37,926 bases of DNA from a virus (IMGVR_UViG_3300030101_002552:1-37926); one strand, 5' to 3'; positions 3,198 through 18,127 are shown, counted from the stretch's first letter. The notes: a model not told the origin generated them from the letters alone. Made by a program: numbers and translations.

Positions 3198-3216
3198 AAA
3201 AACCAGCAAAACAAAT
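3198..3216 (+). repeat. 19-bp repeat, copy 2 (leader of DUF932-like gene)
   Basis: This is an exact match to 1061-1079. It lies between the two TATA-like boxes, close to the predicted start of transcription from the upstream box. Confidence 0.5.
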
Positions 3217-3220
3217 GGTA

Positions 3221-3232
3221 AAAAATATAAAG
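3221..3232 (+). promoter_or_regulatory. Second TATA-like element
   Basis: AAAAATATAAAG is centred about 27 bases before the ATG at 3254, the spacing expected for a leaderless archaeal transcript. However, a GGAGGA ribosome binding site follows at 3241-3246, which argues that the upstream box is the one used. It may be a second promoter or simply A-rich leader. Confidence 0.35.
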
Positions 3233-3253
3233 AGAAACAAGGAGGAACAAAAT

Positions 3254-4771
3254 ATGACAGAAGTAGTATTGATAGGCAAGATAACACAGAGCACACAGAA
3301 TTTGGTAGAAGTCGAATACCCAACCGTAACGGGCGTTCACACTATTAGGCTGACAAGGACAATGATAGCACGATTCGAGCGCATCGAAGGTGGCAGAGTT
3401 GCACTGTTAGTAAGACCGGATGACGGAACAGTAAGAGGCGCACACATCGCCAAGATAGTTCAAGGCGACTGGGCACCACTTCATGTGACTCAAGAACACA
3501 TTGACATAGTGACTGCTATGGAGATGCACGAAGATATACCGGTAACTACACAAGCAGAAGAATCAGATGATGTACCTGTATGGTCTTCGCCACAAGAAGC
3601 ACCGACTATTACATTAGTAGACGAGGACAGTGGCACTGAAACGGTGGTCATGCCAGATGGCCCATTCGATGAAATGCTGTTTAGTGGCGGAAGAAAGAAG
3701 AAAGACACAATCAACTGGGACTTTGAACCTGTAAGAAAACCTGCTTTCGTAGTTCATGAAGAGGGTCAAGAAGGCGCTACTGTTGCTAGAGTAAATAACG
3801 AAGCAGGTGAGCCAATTGCTTACCACATCTTCAATCCACTCTACCAAAGTAACAAGCGACCTGCTGGTGCTTACTTGGGAACATTCAGTCCGACATACTA
3901 TCCTATGCCTTATCGAAAAGGATATGGCCCAATATTGGATATGGCCGCTGAGAAAGGTTGGCCAGCACAAGTTATTGCATGGAATGAAGGTAAGGCATCT
4001 GCCATGTTTGTAGACGCTACCAGTAATGTAGATTGGGAAAAGGCCACCTCTCACTTAGGAGACAAGTGGACAAGGAGAGGCTTCCGTAACCAAGGCGACT
4101 ATCGTATTGGCTTTGCTATCTACAACAGCCTCGATGGTTCATCAGCGTTCAAAGTTCAAGCAGTTGCTGAAAGACTACAGTGTTCAAACGGACAGGTGTT
4201 GGGCGACAGTGCCACCATTGTCAACCTTAAACACACAACCAATGCACTAGGTAACTATGACTTTGAAGGCTTGGCTGAAAAGATAATGGAAGTACTAGAA
4301 GTAGCGGCTCAAGAAATCATCGTAGCCGAGTCAATGAAAGATATACAAATCAATAGAGATGTCTTTGAAAAACTAATGACCGTTTGCCAAAGAAAGAAAC
4401 TAATCACTAAGCCGGTTGTCAAGAGAGACGACGCAGGTAATGTTACTGGATTGAGCAGAGGTTACATGTGGAGACTCATGGGACAAGGTTGGACTAACCC
4501 AAGCGAGCCTTGGGTAGCAGTCAGCCCTAAAGACCAAGGAACTCTATATCAAGTCATGAACATATTGACGGGTGCTATCACTCACAAGCCAGAGTGGACA
4601 GACGGTAAGGGAACTAACCTGAAAGGTTCTACGCTCAACTACAATACTATGACTGACAGATTACAGACAGTTCACAAAGTGCTTGGCGATATTACAAGAA
4701 AGAGTATTGACGGAGTATCTATCGAAAAGCAACTTGAGAACATACCAATGTTCAGTCAAATCCTATACTGA
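3254..4771 (+). CDS. DUF932-like phage/plasmid protein (505 aa)
   Basis: ATG 3254 is chosen over an in-frame ATG at 3215 because GGAGGA lies eight bases before it. The N-terminal 60 residues look like a small beta domain (LIGKIT...RVALLV). An acidic linker follows, then a central region with the pattern of DUF932/TIGR03299 phage- and plasmid-encoded proteins: RGFRNQGDY, then NSLDGSSAF and an ERLQCSNGQ segment. The C-terminal part is helical. DUF932 proteins are common in phages and plasmids and have no settled role. The gene has its own promoter, the only clear one in the first 10 kb, and a leader, suggesting strong expression, perhaps early. The family match is moderate and by eye; the N-terminal domain is not recognised. 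Confidence 0.75.
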   Translation: MTEVVLIGKITQSTQNLVEVEYPTVTGVHTIRLTRTMIARFERIEGGRVALLVRPDDGTVRGAHIAKIVQGDWAPLHVTQEHIDIVTAMEMHEDIPVTTQAEESDDVPVWSSPQEAPTITLVDEDSGTETVVMPDGPFDEMLFSGGRKKKDTINWDFEPVRKPAFVVHEEGQEGATVARVNNEAGEPIAYHIFNPLYQSNKRPAGAYLGTFSPTYYPMPYRKGYGPILDMAAEKGWPAQVIAWNEGKASAMFVDATSNVDWEKATSHLGDKWTRRGFRNQGDYRIGFAIYNSLDGSSAFKVQAVAERLQCSNGQVLGDSATIVNLKHTTNALGNYDFEGLAEKIMEVLEVAAQEIIVAESMKDIQINRDVFEKLMTVCQRKKLITKPVVKRDDAGNVTGLSRGYMWRLMGQGWTNPSEPWVAVSPKDQGTLYQVMNILTGAITHKPEWTDGKGTNLKGSTLNYNTMTDRLQTVHKVLGDITRKSIDGVSIEKQLENIPMFSQILY

Positions 4772-4780
4772 GGTAATCAC

Positions 4781-5488
4781 ATGAACGAAGAAACACCAGA
4801 AGAAGCCGTGAAACTAATACTAGAACGGTTGAGAGAAGGAGGGCTTTGGCAACCGCACGGCTTAGGATTATCTTATGTCAAAGAAAGTGGTAATCAAGTT
4901 ACCTTGACAGCACAAGAAAATACTCCCATGAGTGCCCAAGCGAGGATACGAATGAGGCTGTTGCTGGAGGATGTCGGATGGAAAGTAGACGAAACTACTT
5001 GTCAACTTGTTGAAGTAGAACATTTAACTCCAGAGCAAAAGCACATCAAAGAAATGCAGATGCGACAAGAGTTGGCACAGAGTTGGAAATGTTCTTGTGG
5101 TACACCGCTGTCGGCTTTTCCACTTGAGGAAGGTGTATGGAAACACGAAGGTCAACAAGATATGATGTTACCTAACGGTGAGACTGAAATGGTAGAACAG
5201 TGGCATGTCTTGATAACTTGCCCTACTTGTGATGCAGAAATACCCACCGACCCTTATGACTACGGTTTGCTCGCTGGCGACGACGAAGCAATGCTAACTT
5301 ACAAAACCGACAAAATAGTTTACACTGCCATTGATAGACCTACGATTATCGACATGATAGATAGCAAAGTAGGTGACTCCTTGTTAATACTTGGAACATT
5401 CTGTCCGTTCAACGGTGATTTGTTACCTCCTCATGTAAGAGGTGCTGTAGTCACATTCAAAGAAATAGAAAGGAGTGAAGAAGAATGA
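4781..5488 (+). CDS. Unknown protein with a zinc-ribbon pair (235 aa)
   Basis: The start follows the previous stop by nine bases, with GAGGTAATC as ribosome binding site. The N-terminal about 95 residues are charged and helical with alternating strands. A CSCG pair in the middle and a CPTC pair about 45 residues later can form one zinc ribbon. The C-terminal 60 residues are hydrophobic and strand-rich, with no membrane helix. The last codons overlap the next ATG by four bases (ATGA). No family is recognised; the zinc ribbon suggests nucleic-acid or protein binding. Confidence 0.7.
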   Translation: MNEETPEEAVKLILERLREGGLWQPHGLGLSYVKESGNQVTLTAQENTPMSAQARIRMRLLLEDVGWKVDETTCQLVEVEHLTPEQKHIKEMQMRQELAQSWKCSCGTPLSAFPLEEGVWKHEGQQDMMLPNGETEMVEQWHVLITCPTCDAEIPTDPYDYGLLAGDDEAMLTYKTDKIVYTAIDRPTIIDMIDSKVGDSLLILGTFCPFNGDLLPPHVRGAVVTFKEIERSEEE

Positions 5489-5580
5489 AAAGAGAATATA
5501 AATTTGCAGGGCTTTTTACAATTGAGCAAGTAAGAAGGATAGAAGAATTATTTATGTTATTTGAGGAGGAGGAGAAATGA
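5485..5580 (+). CDS. Micro-protein of 31 aa
   Basis: A 32-codon frame starts at an ATGA overlap with the previous gene and ends at an ATGA overlap with the next, and a GGAGTGAAGAAG stretch lies upstream. The product is a basic-then-acidic helix (KREYKF..., then EEEEK). Filling a gap exactly with overlaps at both ends supports it as a real gene, although the acidic end also carries the GGAGGAGGAG ribosome binding site of the next gene. No function can be proposed. Confidence 0.5.
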   Translation: MKREYKFAGLFTIEQVRRIEELFMLFEEEEK

Positions 5581-5855
5581 GAATCGAAATGTTACAAGCA
5601 GTAGACGGCGATTCCTTACCGTTTATCAGAGCACTCGTAGTGAACAAAAATGATGCCAGTAAACCCTGTGAAAATTGCGGGAAGCGTTCTTATACTCACA
5701 AACTACTCGCTAAAGAAGACACTGATTGGTGTTTGAATTGTAACGATGAATACTATAGGAAGGGTTGGTCGGAAATGAAAATGGGTCTGTGGTGCATGGA
5801 ACAGATGACCAAAGGTATGGCTATTGCAGTAGTAACCGAAGAATCAGAGGAATAG
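5577..5855 (+). CDS. Small zinc-ribbon protein (92 aa)
   Basis: The gene begins in an ATGA overlap, with GGAGGAGGAG just upstream as a strong ribosome binding site. CENCG near residue 31 and CLNC near residue 52 form a classic four-cysteine zinc ribbon. The C-terminal 30 residues are Met-rich and end acidic. Compact proteins of this kind in archaeal viruses are often DNA-binding or adaptor proteins, but nothing here identifies a partner. It lies in a run of several very small genes. Confidence 0.7.
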   Translation: MRIEMLQAVDGDSLPFIRALVVNKNDASKPCENCGKRSYTHKLLAKEDTDWCLNCNDEYYRKGWSEMKMGLWCMEQMTKGMAIAVVTEESEE

Positions 5856-5857
5856 AT

Positions 5858-5992
5858 ATGGGATATTTTGAAAAAGCAATTGTTGGACTGCTAAGTATAG
5901 CAATAGCGCACATAGACAACGGTGACATAGACAAAGCAAGAGCCACGATGTTAGGACTCATAGATTCATTAGAAGGACAGGTGGAAGCATGA
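5858..5992 (+). CDS. Micro-protein, helical (44 aa)
   Basis: ATG 5858 follows the previous stop by two bases, and the stop overlaps the next ATG by four bases. The first half is hydrophobic (AIVGLLSIAIAHI) but short and interrupted, so a membrane segment is possible but weak. The second half (IDKARATMLGLIDSL) looks like an amphipathic helix. Frame use that fits both neighbours exactly supports a real gene. Function unknown. Confidence 0.6.
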   Translation: MGYFEKAIVGLLSIAIAHIDNGDIDKARATMLGLIDSLEGQVEA

Positions 5993-6504
5993 ACATATTT
6001 GTACTAGACGAAGACCCAGCGCAAGCCGCTAGATACCTAGACGATGTTAGACTACCCAAGATGTGTGTGGAGTCAGCACAGATGATGGCATCAGCCCTGC
6101 GTAGGCATGGTGCTACTGATGAGCAGATGCCTCTAACTAAGAAAGGAACACCTTACATTGGTGGCTACAAGCATCACCCATGCACAGTATGGGCTGGCGA
6201 CAGTCGCTGTAATTTCGTATGGCTTGCTTTACACGCAATTGAACAATGCAAGGAATACACTCGAAGGTTCGGTAAAGAACACGCTTGTTCTGGTCCAATC
6301 AATCACATGGCTCGAATGTATAGCACTGTTAAATTTGAGGAAGAATACATGACACCATTTGCACAGGCTATGCCAGACGAATACAAGTCCGATGACGATG
6401 TGGTCAAAGCCTACAGGTCTTACTACAAGTCTAAGGAATACAGCAAAGGTGGTGTTCGATACATCCGAGCAGATGTTCCTACTTGGTGGGAGGTGACGGC
6501 ATGA
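5989..6504 (+). CDS. Conserved phage-type protein beginning MNIFVLDEDP (171 aa)
   Basis: The N-terminus (MNIFVLDEDPAQAARYLDD, then a KMCVESAQMM segment) resembles a family of uncharacterised proteins I recall from many tailed phages, whose members begin similarly and continue with a KMxxESAQ helix. A central GGYKHHPCTVWAGDS block is rich in residues that could bind metal or nucleic acid (two His, Cys, Trp, Asp). No catalytic activity is known to me for the family. The C-terminus reads WWEVTA because the gene ends in the first full copy of the seam repeat, whose GGAGGTGA also serves the next gene through an ATGA overlap. Confidence 0.75.
   Translation: MNIFVLDEDPAQAARYLDDVRLPKMCVESAQMMASALRRHGATDEQMPLTKKGTPYIGGYKHHPCTVWAGDSRCNFVWLALHAIEQCKEYTRRFGKEHACSGPINHMARMYSTVKFEEEYMTPFAQAMPDEYKSDDDVVKAYRSYYKSKEYSKGGVRYIRADVPTWWEVTA
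6487..6504 (+). repeat. Seam repeat copy 1 (TGG + GGAGGTGA + CGGC + ATGA)
   Basis: This is a full copy of the 16-base core GGAGGTGACGGCATGA (6489-6504). In one frame it encodes the C-terminal EVTA and the stop of the gene starting at 5989. It also carries the ribosome binding site and ATG 6501 of the next gene. Confidence 0.85.
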
Positions 6505-6665
6505 TTATGATGAAGTGTAATATTGTTGATTGTCGTGTTAAGACTTTCATTGTTGGTAATTGGGAGGATGAAGTATGGGAATACGAAGAGTCATCAGCAT
6601 GGTCTATGTTGAAAAACAACTGTTGTCCGGGGTGCGGAGAAGAAAGCGTGGAGGTGACGGCATGA
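6501..6665 (+). CDS. Micro-protein with zinc-knuckle cysteines (54 aa)
   Basis: The start ATG 6501 lies in a seam repeat, four bases after a perfect GGAGGTGA. Two Cys near the N-terminus (CNIVDC) and CCPGC near the C-terminus make a four-cysteine zinc site across a short strand and acidic loop (WEDEVWEYEE). The product ends SVEVTA from the next seam copy. The seam extends upstream to the serine codon, so the last six residues look acquired with the seam rather than specific to the protein. Family unknown. Confidence 0.65.
   Translation: MIMMKCNIVDCRVKTFIVGNWEDEVWEYEESSAWSMLKNNCCPGCGEESVEVTA
6645..6665 (+). repeat. Seam repeat copy 2
   Basis: The extended form of the seam (AGC GTG plus the 16-base core) encodes SVEVTA-stop and contains ATG 6662 of the next gene. 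Confidence 0.85.
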
Positions 6666-6772
6666 ATTGGGCTATACACAGGGCGTATTACATTGACCTA
6701 CTCAAGAAGGGTTGGCCTCTCAAGAAGGCTTATGATGAAGCAATTAGACTAAGCGTGGAGGTGACGGCGTGA
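6662..6772 (+). CDS. Micro-protein of 36 aa between two seams
   Basis: This is the shortest member of the array. ATG 6662 is in one seam and the TGA is in the next, so only about 30 codons are unique. The unique part is a basic and aromatic helix pair (MNWAIHRAYYIDLLKKG, then PLKKAYDEAIRL), followed by SVEVTA. There are no cysteines. It is likely translated because it has the perfect GGAGGTGA site on its 5' side, and its own stop also forms the GTG start of the next gene. Function unknown. Confidence 0.6.
   Translation: MNWAIHRAYYIDLLKKGWPLKKAYDEAIRLSVEVTA
6752..6772 (+). repeat. Seam repeat copy 3 (GTG-start variant)
   Basis: This is the same extended seam, with GGCGTGA in place of GGCATGA. 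The downstream gene therefore starts with GTG at 6769, while the upstream C-terminus remains SVEVTA. Confidence 0.85.
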
Positions 6773-6963
6773 TTAGGTGCTATGGAATTGCATACGGCAA
6801 AGACGACTTTTTGCATGTTGATGTTTCTAAAACTGAAAGAGGGGCGAAGATGTATGCAACTCGTAATGGCTACACTAAAGTCACAATTAGGGTAGGCTAT
6901 CACGCTGAAATAATTGCTGAAAAGGTAAATGGTAAGTGGCAAAGCGTGGAGGTGACGGCATGA
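6769..6963 (+). CDS. Small unknown protein (64 aa), GTG start
   Basis: The GTG at 6769 lies four bases after GGAGGTGA, in the seam variant with GGCGTGA; there is no ATG nearby in frame. The product is a compact alpha-beta protein: MIRCYGIAYGKDDFLHVDV, then a helix (TERGAKMYATRNGY), then strands (KVTIRVGYHAEIIAEKV), ending SVEVTA. The fold could be a small dsRNA-binding-like or ferredoxin-like module, but no family is recognised. Confidence 0.65.
   Translation: MIRCYGIAYGKDDFLHVDVSKTERGAKMYATRNGYTKVTIRVGYHAEIIAEKVNGKWQSVEVTA
6943..6963 (+). repeat. Seam repeat copy 4
   Basis: The extended seam again encodes SVEVTA-stop and provides ATG 6960 through an ATGA overlap. Confidence 0.85.
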
Positions 6964-7295
6964 ATGGAAAAGATGTAGTTTGGAGTAAAGAGATGAAGGA
7001 CATGGCAGTTTATTGTATGACAAGTAGCACTGCAATTGAAAGTATAGGACATTACTTAGTTGAATACATTGCACGAGAGGATGCATCAGTTTGCATCCAT
7101 AATACATGGCGACCGTCTCAGAAGGAAATAGACATTTACAATACAGCGTTGACTAAAGCAATTCAAAAATCGAAGCACTTCAAAGACATAAAGAAGTTTT
7201 TACAAACGGCTTCTGATTACTACGGATACAGCGATTACTTTCATTCTTTGGTTAAATGGCTAAAGGAAAAATATGACTTGGAGGTGACAGCGTGA
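6960..7295 (+). CDS. Unknown helical protein (111 aa) in the seam array
   Basis: This is the largest member of the array. It starts at ATG 6960 in a seam and ends LEVTA in the next seam, a variant whose preceding codon is TTG instead of GTG. The sequence is mostly helical (EMKDMAVYCM, AIESIGHYLVEYI, KAIQKSKHFKDIKKFLQTA, then YFHSLVKWLKEKY). It has many aromatic residues and a basic C-terminal half. No metal site or catalytic motif is seen. A role in binding a host protein or DNA would be a guess. Confidence 0.7.
   Translation: MNGKDVVWSKEMKDMAVYCMTSSTAIESIGHYLVEYIAREDASVCIHNTWRPSQKEIDIYNTALTKAIQKSKHFKDIKKFLQTASDYYGYSDYFHSLVKWLKEKYDLEVTA
7278..7295 (+). repeat. Seam repeat copy 5 (variant)
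   Basis: GGAGGTGACAGCGTGA differs from the core by two transitions (GGCATGA becomes AGCGTGA in part). EVTA is retained because ACA still encodes threonine. The next gene starts with GTG 7292. Confidence 0.8.
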
Positions 7296-7447
7296 GTTGC
7301 GATTGTGATTGGGAAAGACTCAACATAAATCCCGTAGGCTACACTTCTACAGGTAGAGAGCAACACGAATGGTATTGTTCATTCTGTAAGAGTAGAAGAG
7401 TATCTTCTAAATACCCTTACAAGCGAAGCGTGGAGGTGACGGAGTAA
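7292..7447 (+). CDS. Micro-protein with zinc-ribbon cysteines (51 aa), GTG start
   Basis: The GTG at 7292 is four bases after GGAGGTGA in a seam copy. The protein starts MSCDCDW and has CSFC in the middle, giving a four-cysteine zinc ribbon around a strand region (REQHEWYC), then a basic tail (KSRRVSSKYPYKR). It ends SVEVTE rather than SVEVTA because the last seam copy reads GAG TAA. Small basic zinc ribbons like this are usually nucleic-acid binding, but nothing more specific can be said. Confidence 0.65.
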   Translation: MSCDCDWERLNINPVGYTSTGREQHEWYCSFCKSRRVSSKYPYKRSVEVTE

Positions 7448-7449
7448 TG
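7427..7449 (+). repeat. Seam repeat copy 6 (terminal variant)
   Basis: The extended seam starts as in copies 2-4, but the last bases are GGAGTAATG instead of GGCATGA. The upstream gene ends SVEVTE-stop and the next begins at ATG 7447 by a TAATG overlap. It is the last copy on this side, at the edge of the array. Confidence 0.8.
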
Positions 7450-7719
7450 GCACACATCAAATCTATGAGTGAAACCGCCAAGAAATATATCGACATCATC
7501 ATGAGCGACGGTAAGGTTCGTAATGCTGGGCAGATACTTGACGCATTATATGAAAGTAGAAAACGAAGTTCTAACAGATACATACCAACGAAAGGTGAAT
7601 TGAAAGATTACATGCAAAGGAACTATTCAAGTGAGGTCAGAAGGGAAAGGCATCCTTTGGCACTGCCTAATATGAGAAACAAAAGACACCCAGTTACATA
7701 TTATTGGAAGGAGGATTAA
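7447..7719 (+). CDS. Possible winged-helix protein (90 aa)
   Basis: The start overlaps the previous stop (TAATG), with GGAGGTGACGGAG upstream. The sequence reads as helix (ETAKKYIDIIMSDGK), helix (NAGQILDALYESRKR), turn, helix (TKGELKDYMQRNY), then a strand-loop-strand with basic residues and a final strand (VTYYWKED). That order fits a winged helix-turn-helix DNA-binding domain, so it could be a viral transcription regulator of this small-gene region. The assignment comes from secondary-structure reading only. It ends two bases before the next gene. Confidence 0.65.
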   Translation: MAHIKSMSETAKKYIDIIMSDGKVRNAGQILDALYESRKRSSNRYIPTKGELKDYMQRNYSSEVRRERHPLALPNMRNKRHPVTYYWKED

Positions 7720-7720
7720 C

Positions 7721-8077
7721 ATGACATTAACTAAGATTATCGAATACAGAATACATTACGGAGAAGACGGAGAATCACGCGACACACTCCTTTACGAGGG
7801 AAAGGACTGGCGAAATTGGAAACAACACATTGGCGAAGAAGGAGTCCAATGGATTGAGAGAGTAGAAGACCAGATTTGTGATTGCAACGGTGTTGTTCAT
7901 ACTGATTACGAAATACTGTGGGAGTCTGACGAATGTCTCAGAGCAGAGGGTAGATGCAGAGCATGCACAGAGTGGTCCGATGGGGAAGAAGAATACGACG
8001 ACATGTGTGCTGAGTGTCAATCGGAAGTAGATGGATTAGCAGACGACATATACTGGATAGCACACGGTGAGTTGTAA
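7721..8077 (+). CDS. Zinc-binding protein sharing the EVDGLADDI C-terminal module (118 aa)
   Basis: GGAGGA lies eight bases before ATG 7721. The N-terminal 70 residues form a small acidic alpha-beta domain with no known match. The C-terminal half has CRAC and CAEC pairs, then EVDGLADDI and WIAHGEL. This last part is nearly the same as the C-terminus of the protein ending at 801, while the N-terminal parts differ. It therefore looks like a shared zinc module attached to different front domains. The stop overlaps the next ATG (TAATG). Function unknown. Confidence 0.75.
   Translation: MTLTKIIEYRIHYGEDGESRDTLLYEGKDWRNWKQHIGEEGVQWIERVEDQICDCNGVVHTDYEILWESDECLRAEGRCRACTEWSDGEEEYDDMCAECQSEVDGLADDIYWIAHGEL
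8024..8050 (+). repeat. 27-bp repeat, copy 2 (C-terminal EVDGLADDI module)
   Basis: This is identical to 748-774 and at the same place relative to the stop codon. The flanks have diverged but still encode similar residues. Confidence 0.8.
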
Positions 8078-8346
8078 TGGCGAGAGGATTCGAGCAGACG
8101 ATTCGCTGGCGAGTGCCATGCACTTCTGTCAGATGGCGAGGCAAGGCCGAGGTAGTCATGAGTGTGGCTGACCCGATTAGCAACAGCCCTGCTATGATTG
8201 ACATCAGAACTAGAAGAACAATCGAACATCACAAAGGTGAAGGCTTTACGAAAGAGGGCGTAAGGCTGACACAGGAAGATGCAATGAGTCTAGCCAAAGC
8301 ATTACTACACACCCTCGAAGAACTGAGGGAAACAGATGCCGTTTGA
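8077..8346 (+). CDS. Small unknown protein (89 aa)
   Basis: The gene starts in a TAATG overlap. The N-terminal half is basic and strand-rich (IRWRVPCTSVRWRGKAEVVMSV). The C-terminal half has a strand (AMIDIRTRRTIEHH) and a helix (TQEDAMSLAKALLHTLEELRE). The C-terminal EELRETDA is encoded by a 23-base stretch repeated at the end of the next gene. That stretch also supplies the ribosome binding site (CTGAGGG) and the ATG of the following gene, so this gene overlaps its successor by 11 bases. No family recognised. Confidence 0.65.
   Translation: MARGFEQTIRWRVPCTSVRWRGKAEVVMSVADPISNSPAMIDIRTRRTIEHHKGEGFTKEGVRLTQEDAMSLAKALLHTLEELRETDAV
8317..8339 (+). repeat. 23-bp seam repeat of a second type, copy 1
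   Basis: This 23-base stretch is identical to 8741-8763. It encodes EELRETDA at the end of one gene and contains the GAGGG ribosome binding site and ATG (8336) of the next. It works like the EVTA seam but has an unrelated sequence. Confidence 0.8.
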
Positions 8347-8773
8347 CTGCCCCGTATGTGGTAAATACGCACCCGGCGGTCGGAGGTTTTGTAGTAAGCC
8401 TTGTAGTAAAAAGGTCAAGCGAATGTGTAGGCGAATAGGTTGCACAGAAACTTGGCATGCTACTGAGCAGAACCGTAAAAGATATTGTAGAAACTGTATA
8501 CCTCAGTCTTATCCTAATCCTATTTACCCCTACAAACTCAACAAACAGTGCGTTCATTGTGGTGAAAGATTTACAGTAGAAATACATAATGAAGAAGAAA
8601 GAACAAGTAAAACTACTTGTGAGTCTTGTAGTAAAGTCTTTAATTCAAGAGCATGGAAATGTATGAGGCTACTTGCAGAAAGTGGAATATCCTCTACTCA
8701 ACTTAACAAGATGGATATAGAAACCATAAATTGGTTTTATGAAGAACTGAGGGAAACAGATGCTATTGGCTGA
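8336..8773 (+). CDS. Multi-zinc-finger protein (145 aa)
   Basis: ATG 8336 lies inside the first copy of the 23-bp seam. Cysteine pairs run through the protein: CPVC, CSKPC, a CRRIGC segment, CRNC, CVHC and CESC, enough for three zinc sites. A CSKPCSKKVKRMC stretch resembles the short fingers found near phage HNH and DUF zinc proteins. The C-terminal helix (KMDIETINWFYEELRETDAIG) contains the repeated EELRETDA. No nuclease His-Asn-His pattern is evident. Nucleic-acid binding is likely; anything beyond that is unknown. Confidence 0.75.
   Translation: MPFDCPVCGKYAPGGRRFCSKPCSKKVKRMCRRIGCTETWHATEQNRKRYCRNCIPQSYPNPIYPYKLNKQCVHCGERFTVEIHNEEERTSKTTCESCSKVFNSRAWKCMRLLAESGISSTQLNKMDIETINWFYEELRETDAIG
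8741..8763 (+). repeat. 23-bp seam repeat of a second type, copy 2
   Basis: This second copy again joins two genes: the zinc-finger protein ending at 8773 and the ligase-like gene starting at ATG 8760. Confidence 0.8.
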
Positions 8774-10214
8774 GGCGGCAAACATTTCTGAGAGTCTCAG
8801 GAAACTGTATAGGAACTACATGACTGATGCAGAGAATCGGTCTACCCACTTCCGTCACTCGATAGAAATTATCAGAGAAGCGGTTAACAATGCGCTGGAT
8901 GACTTAGGTGAATTGATTGAGATATTCTATCCTAAGCATTCACGCTACCCTAGGCAGTTCATTTCCTTTAGAGAGTTGAGAGATGATGTCTGTAAGAAGT
9001 TATCAATCTCTCCCCTAGTATGGGATGAGTCCTTTGCAGGTAAACCAATGGTGCCCCTGCTGTCGTTAGAGTCGCCTGAATATGGAGGGGAAGGGATGAC
9101 AGTCAAGCAGGCACTCAATCTTATGGCTCGTGTAAGAGATGTGGGCTTTCTCGAAATTGCCAGCAAAATGCATGAGAAAGAAGCCCTACTCTTTTGGTCA
9201 AGAGCAACCGGTGAAAGGCCAATGATGCCTATCGCTAGATTCTTGCAGATGGTTACTTACCTTACTGACGGTCATGCTCAGAGTCTACAGTCAATCAGAC
9301 AGATGATGGAAACCATGCAGCCTGCTGAGATTATTCAGAAGTTGTTTGGTGATGGTATGACTGACATGGAGGTGAGAACCATGCAACCCGGACAGGCTTT
9401 CAGTGGTCCTATCTATCGAGCATGGGACAAACTAATAGCACCTAGTAATGCATACGCTGAGGTTATCAGTCATCCTCGTAGATACCTACACATCACTGAG
9501 TTCCCCAAGGGACAGTTCAAAGGAGTTCTCTACAACAGAGACCGGCAGGTCATTGGTAAGACTGGTAACCTACCTCTTGAGCAAGAAGGTATATTTGAAG
9601 TAGAAGCAGAAGGTGTAGAGATAAAGTCAGTCAATGACATCATGGCACTCGGTAATGATTGGGACATCTACAAGTTAGATTACACAGACAGAGTATCCTT
9701 CCTTGAAAGGCTCAACTTATCAGTGCCACTCAAGACAGGTAAAGTCATCGAACCTTCTTCGGATATCAGCCAAATGCTTGAGATTCTGGAGGACAGTGAA
9801 AGACTGAGGTTGATTTCCACTGGACCCTTCTCCATCGGAGGAGAAGGGGGTTGGCTAGTTCTCAAGGATGCTTTCCATGTTCATCTGTTAGTAAACGCTA
9901 TCATGAGAGATGAGGAATACAATGTTCACATTCGAGTATCATCATTAGATGGATACGAAATATACGAGGTTGGGCAGATGAAACTAAAGACCAATGTGGC
10001 TCAGCATGTAAGGCAGCGCCTAGCCCAACAAGGGGTTCTTGTTGGAATGAACTGGTTGCCTGTAGATGAATACGCAATTGTGATTACCATGGAAATAAAT
10101 GAGTTTGATTTGAGCGCTTTATCGATTAAGAATTGTAAGGTCGAATATGTTGATGACAATCTTGGCTATAGTGATGTCTCACAACTGACAGATTTGATAG
10201 AAATGGGGGCATAA
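8760..10214 (+). CDS. Degenerate ATP-dependent DNA ligase-like protein (484 aa), tentative
   Basis: ATG 8760 lies in the second 23-bp seam. The N-terminal 200 residues are helical, like the DNA-binding domain of archaeal ligases. Further on, three stretches fit nucleotidyltransferase/OB motifs of ligases: DIYKLDYTD...FLERL (302-316, like the motif III region), GGEGGWLVLKDA (360-371, like motif IV EGxxxK) and QMKLKTN (406-412, like motif V). Where the catalytic KxDG should be (about 250), the sequence reads PKGQFKG, lacking the Asp-Gly. The enzyme may be inactive, or it may be another protein with chance resemblance. It starts the replication block and is followed by the RFC promoter. This is inference; a profile search is needed. 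Confidence 0.6.
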   Translation: MLLAEAANISESLRKLYRNYMTDAENRSTHFRHSIEIIREAVNNALDDLGELIEIFYPKHSRYPRQFISFRELRDDVCKKLSISPLVWDESFAGKPMVPLLSLESPEYGGEGMTVKQALNLMARVRDVGFLEIASKMHEKEALLFWSRATGERPMMPIARFLQMVTYLTDGHAQSLQSIRQMMETMQPAEIIQKLFGDGMTDMEVRTMQPGQAFSGPIYRAWDKLIAPSNAYAEVISHPRRYLHITEFPKGQFKGVLYNRDRQVIGKTGNLPLEQEGIFEVEAEGVEIKSVNDIMALGNDWDIYKLDYTDRVSFLERLNLSVPLKTGKVIEPSSDISQMLEILEDSERLRLISTGPFSIGGEGGWLVLKDAFHVHLLVNAIMRDEEYNVHIRVSSLDGYEIYEVGQMKLKTNVAQHVRQRLAQQGVLVGMNWLPVDEYAIVITMEINEFDLSALSIKNCKVEYVDDNLGYSDVSQLTDLIEMGA

Positions 10215-10222
10215 TTTGACTT

Positions 10223-10233
10223 CTTTTATAAAG
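10223..10233 (+). promoter_or_regulatory. Archaeal TATA box for the RFC gene
   Basis: CTTTTATAAAG in the 45-base gap is centred about 32 bases before ATG 10260, so transcription would start only a few bases before the gene. A GGTGTGA stretch sits just upstream of the ATG as a possible weak ribosome binding site. It probably drives the replication operon. Confidence 0.6.
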
Positions 10234-10259
10234 GTCCTAAGTAGGTATGGTGTGATTCT

Positions 10260-11186
10260 ATGACATTGAGAGAGAAGTATAGGCCGTCTACAGTGACAGA
10301 TTTGGTTGGATGTAAAGAATTTACTGAGCCGGCCCAGACTTGGACACTTGAGTCTTGCCCGCCGAACTTGCTAATTGCTGGACCTCCCGGTGTAGGTAAG
10401 ACTAGTGCTGCCTACGCTTTAGCAAGAGACTTGCTGGGCGAATACTTTGACCCAATGAATTTCATCGTAACCAATGCAAGTGATGACAGGGGGATAGATT
10501 ACATTCGTTCCCTTAAGATGATGAGCAAGCAGAAGGGAATTGGTGTAAGTCGTAGAATCATATTTCTCGACGAGGCTGACAACTTTACAGCCCCTGCCCA
10601 AAAAGCACTTAGACAGATTATGGAAGAGAGTTACAAGACTACCATATTCATACTCACTGCTAATGATGTGTCAGCGATACACCGAGCGATACTTGACAGA
10701 TGTGTCAAGTATTCATTCAAGGGTATAGACCCAGAGGATAATGAGCGCCTCGCAATGATAATTGAACAGGAAGGAATGCCACAAGAATGGATGGCAAACC
10801 TTCCACACCTAATCAAATTCACAGGCGGAAGCCTAAGACAGGCCATCGACATACTTGATAGCCTTCCAAGAGAGTCGGATGCACTCATCAAAAGCATCAA
10901 ACGAGATACACAATATCTCAACAAAGCGGCTGTCAATCTTCTAGGAGGAGACTTCTCGAAGGTGACTGCTTATCTGGCACAGGCTCTTGAGGCTGGTCAG
11001 TCAAGACTGGGACTTCTCAAGGGTCTTAGGTATCGTGCCAAACCACTCATGGGGAGTGACGAAGAATGGCACAATTTCATGCTCACATATGGCGAGTTCG
11101 TCATACTGGCCACTCAGTGGCCCGATGATGACTTGGCGTTTGTCGAGTATTTTATAGCAAAAATGAAAAACAATATGGAGAAATAA
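10260..11186 (+). CDS. rfcS: Replication factor C small subunit (clamp loader)
   Basis: This AAA+ ATPase would load the sliding clamp encoded 2.5 kb downstream. Motifs seen are EKYRP at the N-terminus (RFC box II-like), Walker A GPPGVGKT (41-48), Walker B FLDEAD (102-107), sensor 1 LTAN (132-135) and LDRC (145-148), a variant of the SRC motif. At 308 residues it is close to the usual 310-330 for archaeal RFC small subunits. No large subunit is seen in the window, so it may act as a homo-oligomer or with host RFC-L. It has its own TATA box just upstream. The call is secure. Confidence 0.95.
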   Translation: MTLREKYRPSTVTDLVGCKEFTEPAQTWTLESCPPNLLIAGPPGVGKTSAAYALARDLLGEYFDPMNFIVTNASDDRGIDYIRSLKMMSKQKGIGVSRRIIFLDEADNFTAPAQKALRQIMEESYKTTIFILTANDVSAIHRAILDRCVKYSFKGIDPEDNERLAMIIEQEGMPQEWMANLPHLIKFTGGSLRQAIDILDSLPRESDALIKSIKRDTQYLNKAAVNLLGGDFSKVTAYLAQALEAGQSRLGLLKGLRYRAKPLMGSDEEWHNFMLTYGEFVILATQWPDDDLAFVEYFIAKMKNNMEK

Positions 11187-11188
11187 AT

Positions 11189-12478
11189 ATGAGCGAAAGT
11201 AATGAAAAGAAATGGCCAGAAGATGTTCTGGAGAGATTGACCGGATACGGTGAAAGAGTAGGTAAGAAAGTAGGCGAAGTTGTGAATGAGTTCACTGCTT
11301 GGCTAAAGGCTGAATACAGTGTGGACAACCCATTGTCAGAGGACCCTTTCTATCTGACTCAGTGGAGTGAGCAGTTTGTAATAGAGACTAGAAACTTGGG
11401 CGGCTCAAGCGGCGGTGGTCGTGAGACGGTTACCTTTGTCGGTATGTTCATCGGAGCCGAAACAGAGAACAGAGACCAAAGAGCAAATGTCATGGAAAGG
11501 GCTATGAGTGTATTCAAGTCCAACCGTGGTAGAGCAGTTGACGAAGGACACATTGGTATTGTTACTGCTAAGGGCGGAGAGTGGCATGTCAATGGTCAGC
11601 CCAGCGGCGAAAGATTACAGGGTAGTGATTTACCTTGGTTCGCATTTGAGCACAACGATGAGATACTCTGTTTGTTGAACAAGCAAAACGACAGTCCTAA
11701 GCCCATCGCACCTACCAGTATCAGTAGGACAATCTATTTCCTAGGTTCCGCTGAGGATAGTAATGAGATTAAGAAGTGGCGTGTGAATGTCACAGGCAAC
11801 AACATGGATGCTCCCTACAAGCAGTGGACCGCTTGTAAGATTCAAGTAATCGAACCGAAAGAAGATAGAGATACTCTTTACACTAACAGAGACTTTGTTG
11901 AAAAGGTAGAGTATACAGACAAGTGGCTACCAGAAACATTACGCAGAGCGTTCTCAGCAGAGCGCTTACTAACAGATGATAACATGCACAGCGAGTATGT
12001 TGACTTGGCTGATTTACTTGAGGCACATGGTGAGAGGAAAGTGATTGGTGCAAACGGAACTACTTACAATCCTGTAGTGATTACTAAAGGCTACATCAGC
12101 CTACTCAACAAAGAACCATCAGAAAGCACAGTAGACCCTACAGGTAGAAGTTACAGATTGAACATCACCAATCTAGGGTTGCAGTCAAGATATGGTAGAG
12201 ACAGTTTTGCTTCTAGTGTAACTGTATGGATTCCGGGTAGGATGCATGACGAAGGTCATCCGTTTGAATATGAGTTAGATGGCATCGAAGGCAACTGGAC
12301 TCCTTACGCAGAGAAGACGCAAGTAATCATAGTGGGTCGATTGAGAATAAGACCATACAAGGATGAGATGTTACCAAGTATAGGTGCACTGGGCATCTAT
12401 GTTCCACACAAAACAGCCAGACCGTCTGGTGGGACTGGTAACACTAATCTAAATCAGTTCGGAGGTGACCTAGAATGA
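11189..12478 (+). CDS. Candidate single-stranded DNA-binding protein (429 aa)
   Basis: The ATG is two bases after the RFC stop. The protein is soluble and strand-rich, with three stretches that read like OB-fold barrels: near residues 80-120 (VTFVGMFIGAE), 160-200 and the C-terminal third (VITKGYISLL...VIIVGRLRIRPY). The C-terminus is Gly/Asn-rich and ends in an acidic LE. Its place between the clamp loader and a RecA-like ATPase, and the apparent lack of enzymatic motifs, suggest an RPA-type ssDNA-binding role. This is inference only; I see no diagnostic RPA motif. The gene overlaps the next by four bases (ATGA). Confidence 0.6.
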   Translation: MSESNEKKWPEDVLERLTGYGERVGKKVGEVVNEFTAWLKAEYSVDNPLSEDPFYLTQWSEQFVIETRNLGGSSGGGRETVTFVGMFIGAETENRDQRANVMERAMSVFKSNRGRAVDEGHIGIVTAKGGEWHVNGQPSGERLQGSDLPWFAFEHNDEILCLLNKQNDSPKPIAPTSISRTIYFLGSAEDSNEIKKWRVNVTGNNMDAPYKQWTACKIQVIEPKEDRDTLYTNRDFVEKVEYTDKWLPETLRRAFSAERLLTDDNMHSEYVDLADLLEAHGERKVIGANGTTYNPVVITKGYISLLNKEPSESTVDPTGRSYRLNITNLGLQSRYGRDSFASSVTVWIPGRMHDEGHPFEYELDGIEGNWTPYAEKTQVIIVGRLRIRPYKDEMLPSIGALGIYVPHKTARPSGGTGNTNLNQFGGDLE

Positions 12479-13509
12479 GTGGTTGGGGAGCATTAGCAGA
12501 AGGTAACAATCAGACAGGTTTGTCAGATATCGAGCAAGTAGTTGAAAAGGTCATGGAAGATTCCGCCCCTGCCCAGCCAAAACCTCAGCAACCTATCACA
12601 TCATCCGAGTTTGTCAGCAGTTTCCCTGACATAGAGGCGGAGATGAATGCTCAATCAGACAATCCCATAATATCACCTAGTAGCATTTTCTGTGGTGTAG
12701 TTGGACACGAGGGGACTGGTAAAAGTGGTGTTGTATTTGACGCACACTTCAATCGTTATCCTGATGGTCTGATGATGGCCATAGACTTCGACAATGGAGC
12801 ACTATCATGCAAGCAGGCTCACTATAGAGAGAGTAACAATGTTAGGATATTCAGTCCTTGGGTCATGCAAATGGAAGACAGGACCGCTTACAACTACTTA
12901 CTTACATTCCAACGAGTTATGGACTTAGGTCGCTACGCTATTGAGTATGCACAAAGACAACAACATGCAAGTTTCGACGGACCAATGCTGAAAACATTCT
13001 TTGTCACTGGTGTAGACCAGTTCGATGCAATGTGTATTGATTGCATGAAGATTTATGATTTAGACATGGATGCGAAAGACGCTATCGAGGCAAGTCACTC
13101 AAAGTTGAACCAAGAGGTTGGTTGGAACTGGAACATTCGTGCTACACGATTCAAGCAACTCACAGGTATCTGTAGGAAATTGAACGCTTTGGGTGTAGAT
13201 GTTTATTGGGAAAGCCATCTGAAAGAAGACAAGGATAGCCAACCGGAATTTGAAGGATGGAAGTTCGCATGGCACGCAAGCGCTAACAAGGACCTGTGGC
13301 AGATTATCTGGTGCAAGGGTAAGAAGGTTAGAGACAATGACGGTTCGACTACCGGGGAGATACGACACACTGCTACTTTCTTCAAGTCCAAGTTGAATCC
13401 AAATCTAAAGCACCAAGAGAGACTTTACTTTGTGACCAACACGGGAGAAGATGCCAAGTGGTATGGGCTTCCCGAACTAAGAGACGGAGCGATTGGAGGA
13501 GTTCAGTGA
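12475..13509 (+). CDS. RecA/RadA-like P-loop ATPase (AAA_24 type)
   Basis: Walker A is GHEGTGKS (residues 77-84). A hydrophobic strand ending in Asp (FFVTGVDQFD, about 165) is the probable Walker B, and a VYWESHLKEDK segment fits the downstream RecA-like core. The N-terminal 65 residues are low-complexity, with Gln and Pro, and are probably disordered. The DNA-binding N-terminal HhH of RadA is absent. This places it with the phage RecA-like ATPases (Sak4/AAA_24 type) that help recombination or act with ssDNA-binding proteins; the neighbour upstream is a candidate for that partner. Followed by a 137-base gap. Confidence 0.8.
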   Translation: MSGWGALAEGNNQTGLSDIEQVVEKVMEDSAPAQPKPQQPITSSEFVSSFPDIEAEMNAQSDNPIISPSSIFCGVVGHEGTGKSGVVFDAHFNRYPDGLMMAIDFDNGALSCKQAHYRESNNVRIFSPWVMQMEDRTAYNYLLTFQRVMDLGRYAIEYAQRQQHASFDGPMLKTFFVTGVDQFDAMCIDCMKIYDLDMDAKDAIEASHSKLNQEVGWNWNIRATRFKQLTGICRKLNALGVDVYWESHLKEDKDSQPEFEGWKFAWHASANKDLWQIIWCKGKKVRDNDGSTTGEIRHTATFFKSKLNPNLKHQERLYFVTNTGEDAKWYGLPELRDGAIGGVQ

Positions 13510-13646
13510 TTATTCTCATGGGGGTTTATCAGGTAATAACGGGAAAATTTTCACAACCCTTGAGATAGTGTCCGTAGGTTTGCTTTTTGGTGTATTTTCC
13601 TTTTTCAGCACGAACTCGTTTCCCCCGCCTTTTACAGGTGATAAGT
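13510..13646 (+). other. Gene-free gap upstream of the PCNA gene
   Basis: This 137-base gap is the longest in the window. It holds a perfect 10-base palindrome GAAAATTTTC (13543-13552) and a pyrimidine-rich tract (about 13578-13635), but no clear TATA box. A 20-codon frame from a GTGA overlap at 13506 ends at 13568 and is not convincing. The gap probably holds a promoter or leader of the PCNA-PolB operon. Confidence 0.4.
13543..13552. repeat. 10-bp palindrome GAAAATTTTC in the PCNA leader
   Basis: A perfect inverted repeat in a gene-free stretch; a dimeric regulator site or an AT-rich promoter element is possible. There is no second copy in the gap. Confidence 0.35.
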
Positions 13647-14408
13647 ATGGTAGATTTTACAGTAAGTAGAGAGACATTCAATAACTTCCTTGGTAGTTTT
13701 GGTAAAGACTTAGGTGACTTGGTTATCAAAGTTACAGGTCAAGGTATAACAGCGTCTGTGGGTCAACAGACTCACTACATAAGAAGAAAGATAGATTGCG
13801 GAACTGGACAGGCAGGTAATATTTACATCAGTGATATACCCAAACTCAAATCATTTATCACTACGGCGAAGAGTGCTGACCTGAATATCATCCAAAGCGC
13901 TAAAACTGGCACACTACATGTTCAATGTGATAAGGCTAGTCTACAATTACCCACATCTTCTTACATCAGGTCGCAAGAAATGGTCGGATTGATAGAGAAG
14001 TTGATTCGTCAATCAGAGGATAGTATGTGGCAAAAGTGGGCTAACTTATCTCTGAACTACCACGCTAGAGTTACAGCCGAATCCTTGAAACCAGCAACGG
14101 GATTCAAGAAAGTCTTAGGTGACAAGTATTCCTGTAAGACTGAATTTGACCCGCAAGGCCAAGAGTTAGTCATACGAGGGGGTAAGTCGGCAACTGGTAA
14201 AATGTTCGTGCGGGCTCCTCTGAGTGACATCGCTTCGCCTGAGATTTCCGCAAGGTCAGCATTTGACAAGTGGTTACCAGAGTTATTGTCCAATCTACCT
14301 AACGGTGAGTTGAACCTGTATACAGGGGATGAAACGGTGCTTGTGTTAGAGCAGCCGTCTACTCACTTCCTAATGGTGGTAATGGACCAAGAATATGAAG
14401 AGGACTGA
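13647..14408 (+). CDS. pcn: PCNA-like DNA sliding clamp (253 aa)
   Basis: ATG 13647 is chosen because GGTGAT lies six bases upstream; an in-frame ATG at 13587 would add a non-conserved pyrimidine-coded stretch. The protein is 253 residues, the usual PCNA size (about 245-260). It opens VDFTVSRETFNNFL, like the first clamp domain, and has the repeated strand pattern of two PCNA domains, ending VLVLEQPSTHFLMVVMDQEYEE, the usual place of the last strand pair. The sequence is diverged, and the interdomain loop is not clearly identifiable. The next gene is PolB, three bases on, and RFC is upstream, which strongly supports a clamp that tethers the viral polymerase. Confidence 0.85.
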   Translation: MVDFTVSRETFNNFLGSFGKDLGDLVIKVTGQGITASVGQQTHYIRRKIDCGTGQAGNIYISDIPKLKSFITTAKSADLNIIQSAKTGTLHVQCDKASLQLPTSSYIRSQEMVGLIEKLIRQSEDSMWQKWANLSLNYHARVTAESLKPATGFKKVLGDKYSCKTEFDPQGQELVIRGGKSATGKMFVRAPLSDIASPEISARSAFDKWLPELLSNLPNGELNLYTGDETVLVLEQPSTHFLMVVMDQEYEED

Positions 14409-16766: not shown

Positions 16767-17129
16767 ATGAGTAGAATAGAAGACGAAGTATGTAAGAAGA
16801 TACAGGGCCGAGCAGAAGTCGGTAAAAGTAAGTATGGAGTTACTATGGAGACTGCGCCCCTATCTAGGCTAGAATGGCTAATTCATGCTCAAGAAGAAGC
16901 GATGGACCTAGCGGTCTATTTGCAGAAATTGATTGAAGGAGAGCAAGATGCAATGATGCTGAATCAAATGCTTAATGACATTGACGAACAGAAGCGTAAC
17001 GAGACATTGAGAGAAGAATGGGAAAAGAAAGAACAATCTTCACCTGACTGGAAAAAGAAATTTAGAAATGTCAAGGGTGCAATATCGTATCACCAGAGGT
17101 GGCTCAAAGAGAAGGAGGAATCGGAATGA
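16767..17129 (+). CDS. MazG-like NTP pyrophosphohydrolase family protein (120 aa)
   Basis: Residues 22-50 read KYGVTME, then LSRLEWLIHAQEEAMDLAVYL. This is the all-alpha NTP pyrophosphatase pattern (KYG, then a helix with EExxD: E43, E44, D47) seen in many phage dNTP pyrophosphohydrolases, which cleave dNTPs to dNMP and pyrophosphate. The C-terminal half is a charged coiled-coil-like helix (DIDEQKRNETLREEWEKKE). The start ATG follows the PolB stop by four bases. A nucleotide-pool role beside the polymerase is plausible. The family is by motif; the substrate is unknown. Confidence 0.75.
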   Translation: MSRIEDEVCKKIQGRAEVGKSKYGVTMETAPLSRLEWLIHAQEEAMDLAVYLQKLIEGEQDAMMLNQMLNDIDEQKRNETLREEWEKKEQSSPDWKKKFRNVKGAISYHQRWLKEKEESE

Positions 17130-18127
17130 GTAGAGATTGGGCAGCATACGCTAAATCCACATACCAGTGGGAACCGGGACATGAAAAAATGCTCCGCATC
17201 ACTAAGTCTAGTCTTACCAGCGACTTTGATTTCTGCCCCAAGCAATATCAATACAAGCGTATTCACCGACTACCAGAGCCTGAGACAACGGCTATGATAA
17301 AGGGAACTAATGTTCACAATGCTGTGGAGGCGTTTTATGACAATGCTATGCCCATTGTGCATGAAATGTTCAAACTTATGCAACGAGACAAACGAGAGGA
17401 AGCGTTAACTTTGGCCCTTAGTATATTACCAGAAGAAGATTATACTTTGGGCGAAGAACCCATTATAGAAACTCGCATTCGGTGGGACTTAGAGAGACTG
17501 TTGTCAGTGGGTCCAGATACTTATCTACCAATCATGAATGAGTTAGAGGTTCATGCTTATGTGGTAGAGGAGTTTGAATTTAATGGAGAAACGCTTGAGA
17601 TACCTATTCACTATGCAGGAAGCATTGACCGTGGTTTCAGTGAAGAAGATGGTGGAGTGGCCATAATGGAATTGAAAACAGGTAAATGGGTGCAATCTAA
17701 AAACAAAGACGACGAGTGGAATGACTCGAAGTTTAAGATGCAGTCGATGAGAACAGAGATGGCTTTCTATCGGTATCTATTAATCAAAGCAGACCACCAC
17801 CATCAGAATGTAACACACTGGGGATGGGTCTATCCCGCAGGTTCCAGTGCTCAACTAGATACTTACAACAAATACGGATATGAGCAGAGAGCAGTAGATA
17901 GGATTGTATATGAAACACTTAATACTAGAACAATCAACACTTACAGAAAAAGGGTTGAAAAACTTAAAACAGCCTTGCTTACGGCTTACATGACAGACGA
18001 TTTTCCAACTAAGGCTAGTGCAGGTAAGTGTGCATGGTGCTCATTCAAGAGCATCTGCCCAAGTTGGGATGGAAGCGATAACCCACAAGAATACTTAGAT
18101 GAATATGGAAGTGATAAAGATGAATGA
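17126..18127 (+). CDS. Cas4/RecB-like PD-(D/E)XK nuclease with Fe-S cluster
   Basis: This is a RecB-family exonuclease of 333 residues. The first Fe-S cysteine is C37 (FDFCPKQYQYK), followed by the GTNVH segment with H64, D168 (SIDRG) and E182-x-K184 (MELKTGK), the PD-(D/E)XK active site, then Q206 of the QxxxY motif (KMQSMRTEMAFYRY). The last three cysteines are C302, C305 and C311 (GKCAWCSFKSIC), completing the four-cysteine [4Fe-4S] pattern shared by Cas4, AddB and RecB-like viral nucleases. ATG 17126 is chosen because of its ATGA overlap and the GGAGGA ahead of it. It probably processes DNA ends in recombination or packaging; no cas genes are nearby. Confidence 0.92.
   Translation: MSRDWAAYAKSTYQWEPGHEKMLRITKSSLTSDFDFCPKQYQYKRIHRLPEPETTAMIKGTNVHNAVEAFYDNAMPIVHEMFKLMQRDKREEALTLALSILPEEDYTLGEEPIIETRIRWDLERLLSVGPDTYLPIMNELEVHAYVVEEFEFNGETLEIPIHYAGSIDRGFSEEDGGVAIMELKTGKWVQSKNKDDEWNDSKFKMQSMRTEMAFYRYLLIKADHHHQNVTHWGWVYPAGSSAQLDTYNKYGYEQRAVDRIVYETLNTRTINTYRKRVEKLKTALLTAYMTDDFPTKASAGKCAWCSFKSICPSWDGSDNPQEYLDEYGSDKDE

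Follow-up and report, generated by a model that had tools for sequence, protein, structure and literature searches.

A 16-base seam shared by gene end and gene start borders exchanged small cassettes in probably magrovirus-like viruses

The seam array and the virus that carries it

The window analysed here covers an entire virus record (37,926 bases). Downstream of a conserved gene of the Pyr_excise type, referred to below as the anchor gene (5989–6504, 171 aa; PF03013, Pfam E 1.1e-8; phrog_624, PHROG E 2.4e-54), six copies of the sequence GGAGGTGACGGCRTGA, the seam, join five small genes, the cassettes. Anchor gene, seams, cassettes and exit gene all lie on the + strand. The first seam (6489–6504, GGAGGTGACGGCATGA) is carried by the 3′ end of the anchor gene itself. 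It is followed by cassette 1 (6501–6665, 54 aa, with the C-terminus VEVTA; family 99, seen only in this array), seam 2 (6650–6665), cassette 2 (6662–6772, 36 aa), seam 3 (6757–6772, with a GTG start), cassette 3 (6769–6963, 64 aa), seam 4 (6948–6963), cassette 4 (6960–7295, 111 aa), seam 5 (7280–7295, GGAGGTGACAGCGTGA) and cassette 5 (7292–7447, 51 aa). An exit variant, seam 6 (7432–7449, GGAGGTGACGGAGTAATG), leads into the exit gene (7447–7719, 90 aa, MAHIKS...).

Seams 1 to 4 match the seam exactly with RTG as the start codon, seam 5 has one mismatch and seam 6 has two; at no more than two mismatches, no further copy was found in the whole 37,926-base record. By chance, a mean of 0.24 copies per window is expected at up to three mismatches, and the observed count was reached in none of 100 shuffles. 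A sequence-only reading of the window had described six seams and five genes of 36–111 aa between an entry and an exit gene, and this layout is found far above chance, with some corrections of detail. The array does begin with a seam, at 6489 rather than 6487. The upstream extension AAGCGTGG is present, but at four seams (6650, 6757, 6948 and 7432) instead of three. Stop and start overlap as RTGA at seams 1 to 5, and the overlap claimed for the last seam also holds, by one base (TAATG), but its Shine-Dalgarno (SD) core lies 7 bases before the ATG and not 4.

A second IMG/VR contig (L127) carries the array unchanged: 32 of 12,501 positions differ from the window, none of them within the array. 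Nineteen of these 32 differences are packed into 300 bp just upstream of the anchor gene (window 5309–5609), a cluster that likely represents a recent recombination tract.

Profile searches of the window found an SNF2 helicase, DUF932, a clamp loader, a B-family DNA polymerase, an ERCC4 nuclease, a PD-(D/E)XK nuclease and a chaperonin-like ORF, a gene content that fits an archaeal tailed virus. The viruses that carry the array are probably marine, magrovirus-like and archaeal. No close relative was found in the GenBank phage set, where the best PolB matches (~25%) are to haloarchaeal tailed viruses. A candidate recombinase with the Walker A motif GHEGTGKS (12475–13509, + strand, 344 aa) is encoded 5 kb downstream of the array. 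Its product has a weak Pfam match to AAA_24 (21.8 bits, below cut-off) and neither a PHROG match nor a PDB sequence match. The predicted structure, a model of moderate confidence (mean pLDDT 65), has the RecA-type ATPase core fold. Compared with known structures (VIA), it reaches Z up to 12.8 (rmsd 3.1 over 174 residues), the matches listed being RadA, RAD51, DMC1 and RAD51 paralogues, and Sak4 is among the Foldseek matches listed. The model thus makes this protein a candidate RadA/Rad51-fold ATPase. The PD-(D/E)XK nuclease (17099–18127, + strand; PF12705, E 8e-17; phrog_1218, exonuclease, E 5e-12) is a candidate recombination partner. The DUF932 protein (3215–4771) was considered as an annealing protein; its model is poor and gave no informative fold match.

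Anchor-gene relatives and the cassette pool

The anchor gene has 386 relatives in viral contigs. Among 87 deduplicated IMG/VR contigs with the anchor gene and enough downstream sequence, 56 have a seam at the anchor end, and 33 of these 56 continue with one to eight complete cassettes, giving arrays of 0–8 complete cassettes behind the same gene. There is no seam at the anchor end in the other 31 contigs, and the system is therefore confined to part of the group. The sequence after the anchor gene is different in most contigs. All 100 seams found at no more than one mismatch in 25 records lie on a single strand in each record, mostly in one cluster, as against no match for a reversed control pattern in the same records. 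Open frames were present on both sides of 331 of 352 seams. Relatives thus do not repeat the same genes in the same order, nor does the seam occur at chance frequency: contents differ, and the seam is nearly confined to arrays. One contig (G023, the contig of L076) has two separate seam arrays (9987–10587 and 13247–13679), about 2.7 kb apart.

A search of 84,980 species' genomes gave 10 stretches of the extended 21-mer. Nine of them are in unrelated, mostly actinobacterial records and the tenth is in a viral contig that is probably mis-binned, so that no host source of the seam was found in this set. A sequence labelled Maricaulis sp. (NZMJ01000078.1; L301, 1–1259) contains an anchor-gene end and a row of ORFs ending in EVTA, and is probably a mis-binned virus contig.

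Because a wide 16-mer scan of viral contigs mixes in chance matches from GC-rich phages, conservative counts were restricted to contigs in which the anchor gene or the extended 21-mer is present. This set contains 129 different reading frames that run from seam to seam, 29–248 aa long (median 53 aa), which fall into 77 families unrelated to one another by blastp. The C-terminus is EVTA in 94 of the 129 cassettes and EVxx in most others, and GTG is more frequent than ATG as a start codon (81 versus 46). In a wider set, 60 of 105 families have CxxC pairs, compared with 18 expected from residue shuffling. Among 80 representatives scanned, there was one clear N6/N4 DNA methyltransferase, one C5 methylase match and a few zinc-ribbon matches; the rest had no assignment. 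Thirty-three families recur elsewhere beside different neighbours.

Two genes of the window outside the array resemble cassettes. A member of cassette family 3 (271–551, + strand) lies behind a seam remnant, GAGAGTGACGGCATGA, at 271, and shares 91% DNA identity with cassettes of two other contigs (L260 and L254), both ending in EVTA. Its frame continues into another gene (MSETHIVESADG..), where the cassette copies stop at EVTA. The gene at 7721–8077 resembles cassette family 2; the cassette ends in ..LWEVTA and the window protein continues (..LWESDECLRAEG..). This comparison suggests that cassettes may be trimmed genes with the seam as a new C-terminus.

Exchange from seam to seam and its possible causes

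The contents of the array change between kept seams. Three contigs (L128, L129 and L136) are 89–93% identical to the window in three flanking genes, yet they contain none of its five cassettes. Cassettes 2, 3, 4 and 5 of the window are each found elsewhere with other neighbours. Cassette 2 is the sole cassette behind the anchor gene in L142 (98% DNA identity, versus 74% for the anchors), and cassette 5 is the first after the anchor gene in L199 (96% versus 60%). Cassette 3 is flanked by other neighbours in L076 (92% DNA identity), and cassette 4 stands alone in L185, lies within other arrays in L193 and L195, and is also present in L255. The identity of cassettes exceeds that of anchors in 30 of 31 pairs, a figure not counted as proof, since selecting similar cassettes biases the comparison. 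Empty sites were found as well: a single seam joins the anchor gene to the clamp-loader gene (RFC) in L164, L165 and L167, and the same two genes are separated by one cassette, different in each, in L142 and L185. The sequence-only reading had proposed a cassette array with constant seams and variable contents, which agrees with these comparisons.

The exchanged units end at the seams. Among 58 same-family pairs with DNA identity above 0.7, both 100-nt flanks are at the level of unrelated sequences in 45. Averaged DNA identity is ~0.93 inside the cassette, 0.88–0.99 over the 16 seam bases and 0.22–0.34 (~0.27) just outside, with a shoulder of 0.34–0.50 over the 9 bases upstream of the seam, around GCGTG. 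Swapping of viral genes generally takes place at gene ends. Since selection removes broken genes, any gene-wise swap should leave its breakpoints there, and these sharp edges alone are therefore no proof of crossing-over in the seam.

A hybrid seam was also found. L129 has no cassette, and its sole seam, GGAGGTGACAGCGTAATG, joins the anchor gene directly to the exit gene. L136 has two cassettes and an exit seam identical to that of the window. The left part of the L129 seam is as in the first seam of L136 (GACAGCG) and the right part as in its last seam (GTAATG), and the two contigs are 97% identical in two downstream flanking genes and 92% identical in the anchor gene. Crossing-over between those two L136 seams would be expected to yield just such a sequence.

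We further compared all RTGA junctions in these contigs. The share of informative pairs in which one side is conserved and the other unrelated is 0.988 at seams (0.943 without the anchor gene), 0.527 at other Shine-Dalgarno overlaps and 0.31 at overlaps without a Shine-Dalgarno sequence, a class that includes chance frames. In a de novo count of k-mers that recur at non-homologous places, the seam ranks first and two other junction types come next. Other recurrent junction words are AGGTGAAGAAGAATGA (coding GEEE and a stop) and AGGAGGAATGAAYATG, found for example in L128 near 5013 and in L150 near 643; one-sided conservation is seen at AGGAGGAATGAAYATG as well. The evidence for exchange is comparative throughout and comes from metagenome contigs.

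Could selection alone have produced this pattern? Swaps would then be illegitimate and fall anywhere, only clean in-frame joins would survive, and the seam would simply be the best coupling or ribosome-binding site in this host, with no part in the exchange. The seam core does combine an ideal SD sequence with the RTGA overlap, shuffling is also seen at other SD overlaps of these genomes, and AGGTGAAGAAGAATGA and AGGAGGAATGAAYATG are further recurrent junction types. However, spacers are diverse at the other SD junctions, where shuffling is about half as frequent, the CGGC spacer of the seam has no pairing role to 16S rRNA, conservation extends weakly upstream into GCGTG, and the hybrid seam of L129 also speaks against selection as the only cause. 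We regard this explanation as unlikely, though it is the strongest of the alternatives.

The base composition of the seam is relevant to the same question. Among 237 non-redundant junctions, all 16 positions of the consensus GGAGGTGACGGCRTGA hold more than 0.9 bits and a few preceding positions 0.2–0.5, values that are inflated because the set was picked by similarity to the seam. The part that would pair with an archaeal 16S 3′ end is GGAGGTGA. The CGGC spacer is present at 93 of 141 perfect GGAGGTGA-plus-RTGA junctions, in contrast to 1 of 95 other GGAGG junctions at equal spacing, which makes it unlikely that convergent selection has favoured a single spacer. The sequence-only reading had argued that convergent selection would not keep the EVTA codons and CGGC. 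This argument is upheld by the excess of CGGC over an SD-only model, but it is not conclusive, as selection for a favoured spacer could still yield the same excess.

In a first linkage profile, seam bases 8–12 appeared to be linked to the downstream gene only. This claim was dropped because anchor pairs dominated the profile and linkage to both sides emerged in a test with balanced families. The balanced test did not locate the crossover position within the seam; spacer bases 8–9 correlate with the genes on either side, upstream as well as downstream. The seam extensions (−6 to −1) are no more alike within arrays than between arrays, and there is therefore no sign of homogenisation.

One constant site, one orientation, an ordered array and single-ORF cassettes would also fit a dedicated site-specific recombinase that recognises the seam, as in integrons. 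No tyrosine integrase domain (Phage_integrase, PF00589) was found in the 25 records (~2.0 Mb, possibly incomplete), while all 14 control genomes were positive, and no serine recombinase (Resolvase) domain was found in the same records, with 10 of 14 control genomes positive. The 100 seam contexts fold no better than shuffled sequences (mean z 0.03) and form no hairpin. The absence of an integrase and of an attC-like hairpin, stated in the sequence-only reading for the window, thus extends to these records and contexts. A site-specific system is very improbable because of the missing domains and folding signal, and the seam, moreover, varies at several positions.

The conserved 3′ ends with divergent bodies and the CxxC pattern in 60 of 105 families could be taken for an old tandem duplication, with the cassettes being diverged copies of one ancestral gene whose end and start were kept, but the families are unrelated by blastp, range from 29 to 248 aa, include DNA methyltransferases and occur at high DNA identity in distant genomes, and we give this idea next to no weight. 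Mis-joining of contigs at a repeat, conceivable for metagenome contigs with several seams each, is equally negligible because repeats of 16–22 bp are shorter than the usual assembly k-mers and identical arrays are found in contigs of different data sets (L173/L174, L183/L184, L191/L194 and L180/L182); in addition, the L127 array equals that of the window with SNPs elsewhere, and cassettes are in frame across the joins.

A proposed mechanism and the nearest known systems

We consider it probable that the locus is an exchangeable, promoterless cassette array of an archaeal-type (magrovirus-like) virus, translated by termination-reinitiation and exchanged through short homology in the seam. Each cassette would be one small ORF whose last bases, GGAGGTGACGGC, specify the C-terminal E-V-T-A and also the Shine-Dalgarno sequence and spacer of the next gene, with stop and start overlapping as RTGA. 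Because GGAGGTGACGGC doubles as C-terminus and next ribosome-binding site, any cassette could follow any other while keeping the frame and a functional ribosome site. The array would be translated from a single upstream transcript. Such coupling is suggested by analogy: in Haloferax and E. coli, 13 of 14 overlapping stop/start pairs examined proved to be coupled (Huber et al., PMC6728339). Cassettes may be gained from co-infecting relatives, lost and re-ordered, for which crossing-over or strand annealing within the 16–22 bp of seam homology would be the simplest route. The virus's own RadA/Rad51-like ATPase and PD-(D/E)XK nuclease are probable helpers, and the cassette proteins may have an accessory role in host take-over or counter-defence. 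Much more tentatively, the array might be seen as a gene-capture platform, in which a ribosome-binding site fused to a C-terminus serves as universal connector and recombination site, a pool of micro-genes is traded without integrase, promoter or spacer through the virus's own RadA/Sak4-like recombinase, and genes enter by trimming, with the seam as a new C-terminus; we would rather doubt than assert this wider claim.

Integrons have a tyrosine integrase (IntI), attC hairpin sites and single-ORF cassettes behind a fixed gene. The seam arrays resemble them in their single-ORF cassettes, one orientation, ordered array, constant boundary and precise gain and loss behind a fixed gene, but they differ in that no tyrosine integrase, attC hairpin or spacer is present (25 records; 100 seam contexts) and that the site is part of coding sequence and sets translation. 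PeSL, the promoter-terminator motifs of T4-type phages, were reportedly described by Arbiol in 2010 and Comeau in 2014. As presented in two other reports (PMC4503421, PMC3950731), PeSL is a short conserved motif between small hypervariable ORFs that is held to mediate modular shuffling and that consists of an early promoter and a stem-loop in intergenic DNA; a similar motif is reported there in the haloarchaeal virus HGTV-1 (PMC3950731). The seam is likewise a conserved motif bordering shuffled small ORFs in a hypervariable region. The seam arrays, however, have neither intergenic DNA (RTGA overlap) nor a stem-loop signal, and in contrast to PeSL as presented there, the seam codes for the C-terminus of one protein and contains the ribosome-binding site of the next, which makes it an element of coding and translation.

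In cluster K mycobacteriophages, the 13-bp Start-Associated Sequence (SAS) GGGATAGGAGCCC precedes the starts of unrelated genes, has SD character, is nearly absent from host genomes and is conserved beyond the part that pairs with 16S rRNA (PMC3203893). The seam is similarly a short conserved SD-like element directly before the start codons of unrelated genes, but its consensus GGAGGTGACGGCRTGA differs from GGGATAGGAGCCC and is not the 13-bp SAS element, and the description of SAS mentions neither a common C-terminus with overlapping stop and start nor a place at the borders of exchanged cassettes in an array. Coupling at ATGA overlaps (PMC6728339) shares the RTGA stop-start overlap with SD; ordinary pairs, however, are fixed neighbours with variable sequences, whereas the seam is a fixed sequence with changing partners. 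In archaeal viruses, early anti-defence genes have been recognised by the regulatory sequence they have in common, a promoter in front of single genes (PMC11065993). There too, small accessory genes without relation to one another are linked by one regulatory sequence, but it is a promoter in that case and a translation seam inside an operon here, and the functions of the cassettes are putative. The PeSL of T4-type phages and HGTV-1, the cluster K SAS and integron cassettes are the nearest known systems, and each matches part of the picture. None of the compared systems, as described, has an exchanged boundary that unites a shared C-terminus with stop, start and ribosome site. Our literature search found no description of such seams in magroviruses, and a 2023 magrovirus survey is silent on cassettes, repeats and recombination.

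With a 16-base connector that supplies stop, ribosome site and start, accessory genes could be swapped singly without breaking expression. The old idea that short boundary sequences guide modular viral exchange is opened to a direct test, as sequence alone reveals the site, the units exchanged, the empty sites and a hybrid seam. Used as a search string, the seam also gives easy access to a pool of small viral proteins of unknown function. More than half of them carry CxxC motifs and at least one is a DNA methyltransferase; in marine archaea, these proteins may serve host take-over or counter-defence. As a natural scarless connector for polycistronic genes, the seam may also be of use in synthetic biology.

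Two further observations concern the window outside the array. The genes at 187–801 and 7721–8077 have a common C-terminal module, ..CxECQSEVDGLADDIxWIAHG.L, which also terminates separate genes in L128, L129 and L136. A 23-bp direct repeat, GAAGAACTGAGGGAAACAGATGC (8317–8339 and 8741–8763; coding ..EELRETDA), flanks a 145-aa gene (8336–8773). This gene is absent from L128, where one copy of GAAGAACTGAGGGAAACAGATGC joins the flanking genes directly, and it appears to be a second, independent seam-like insertion.
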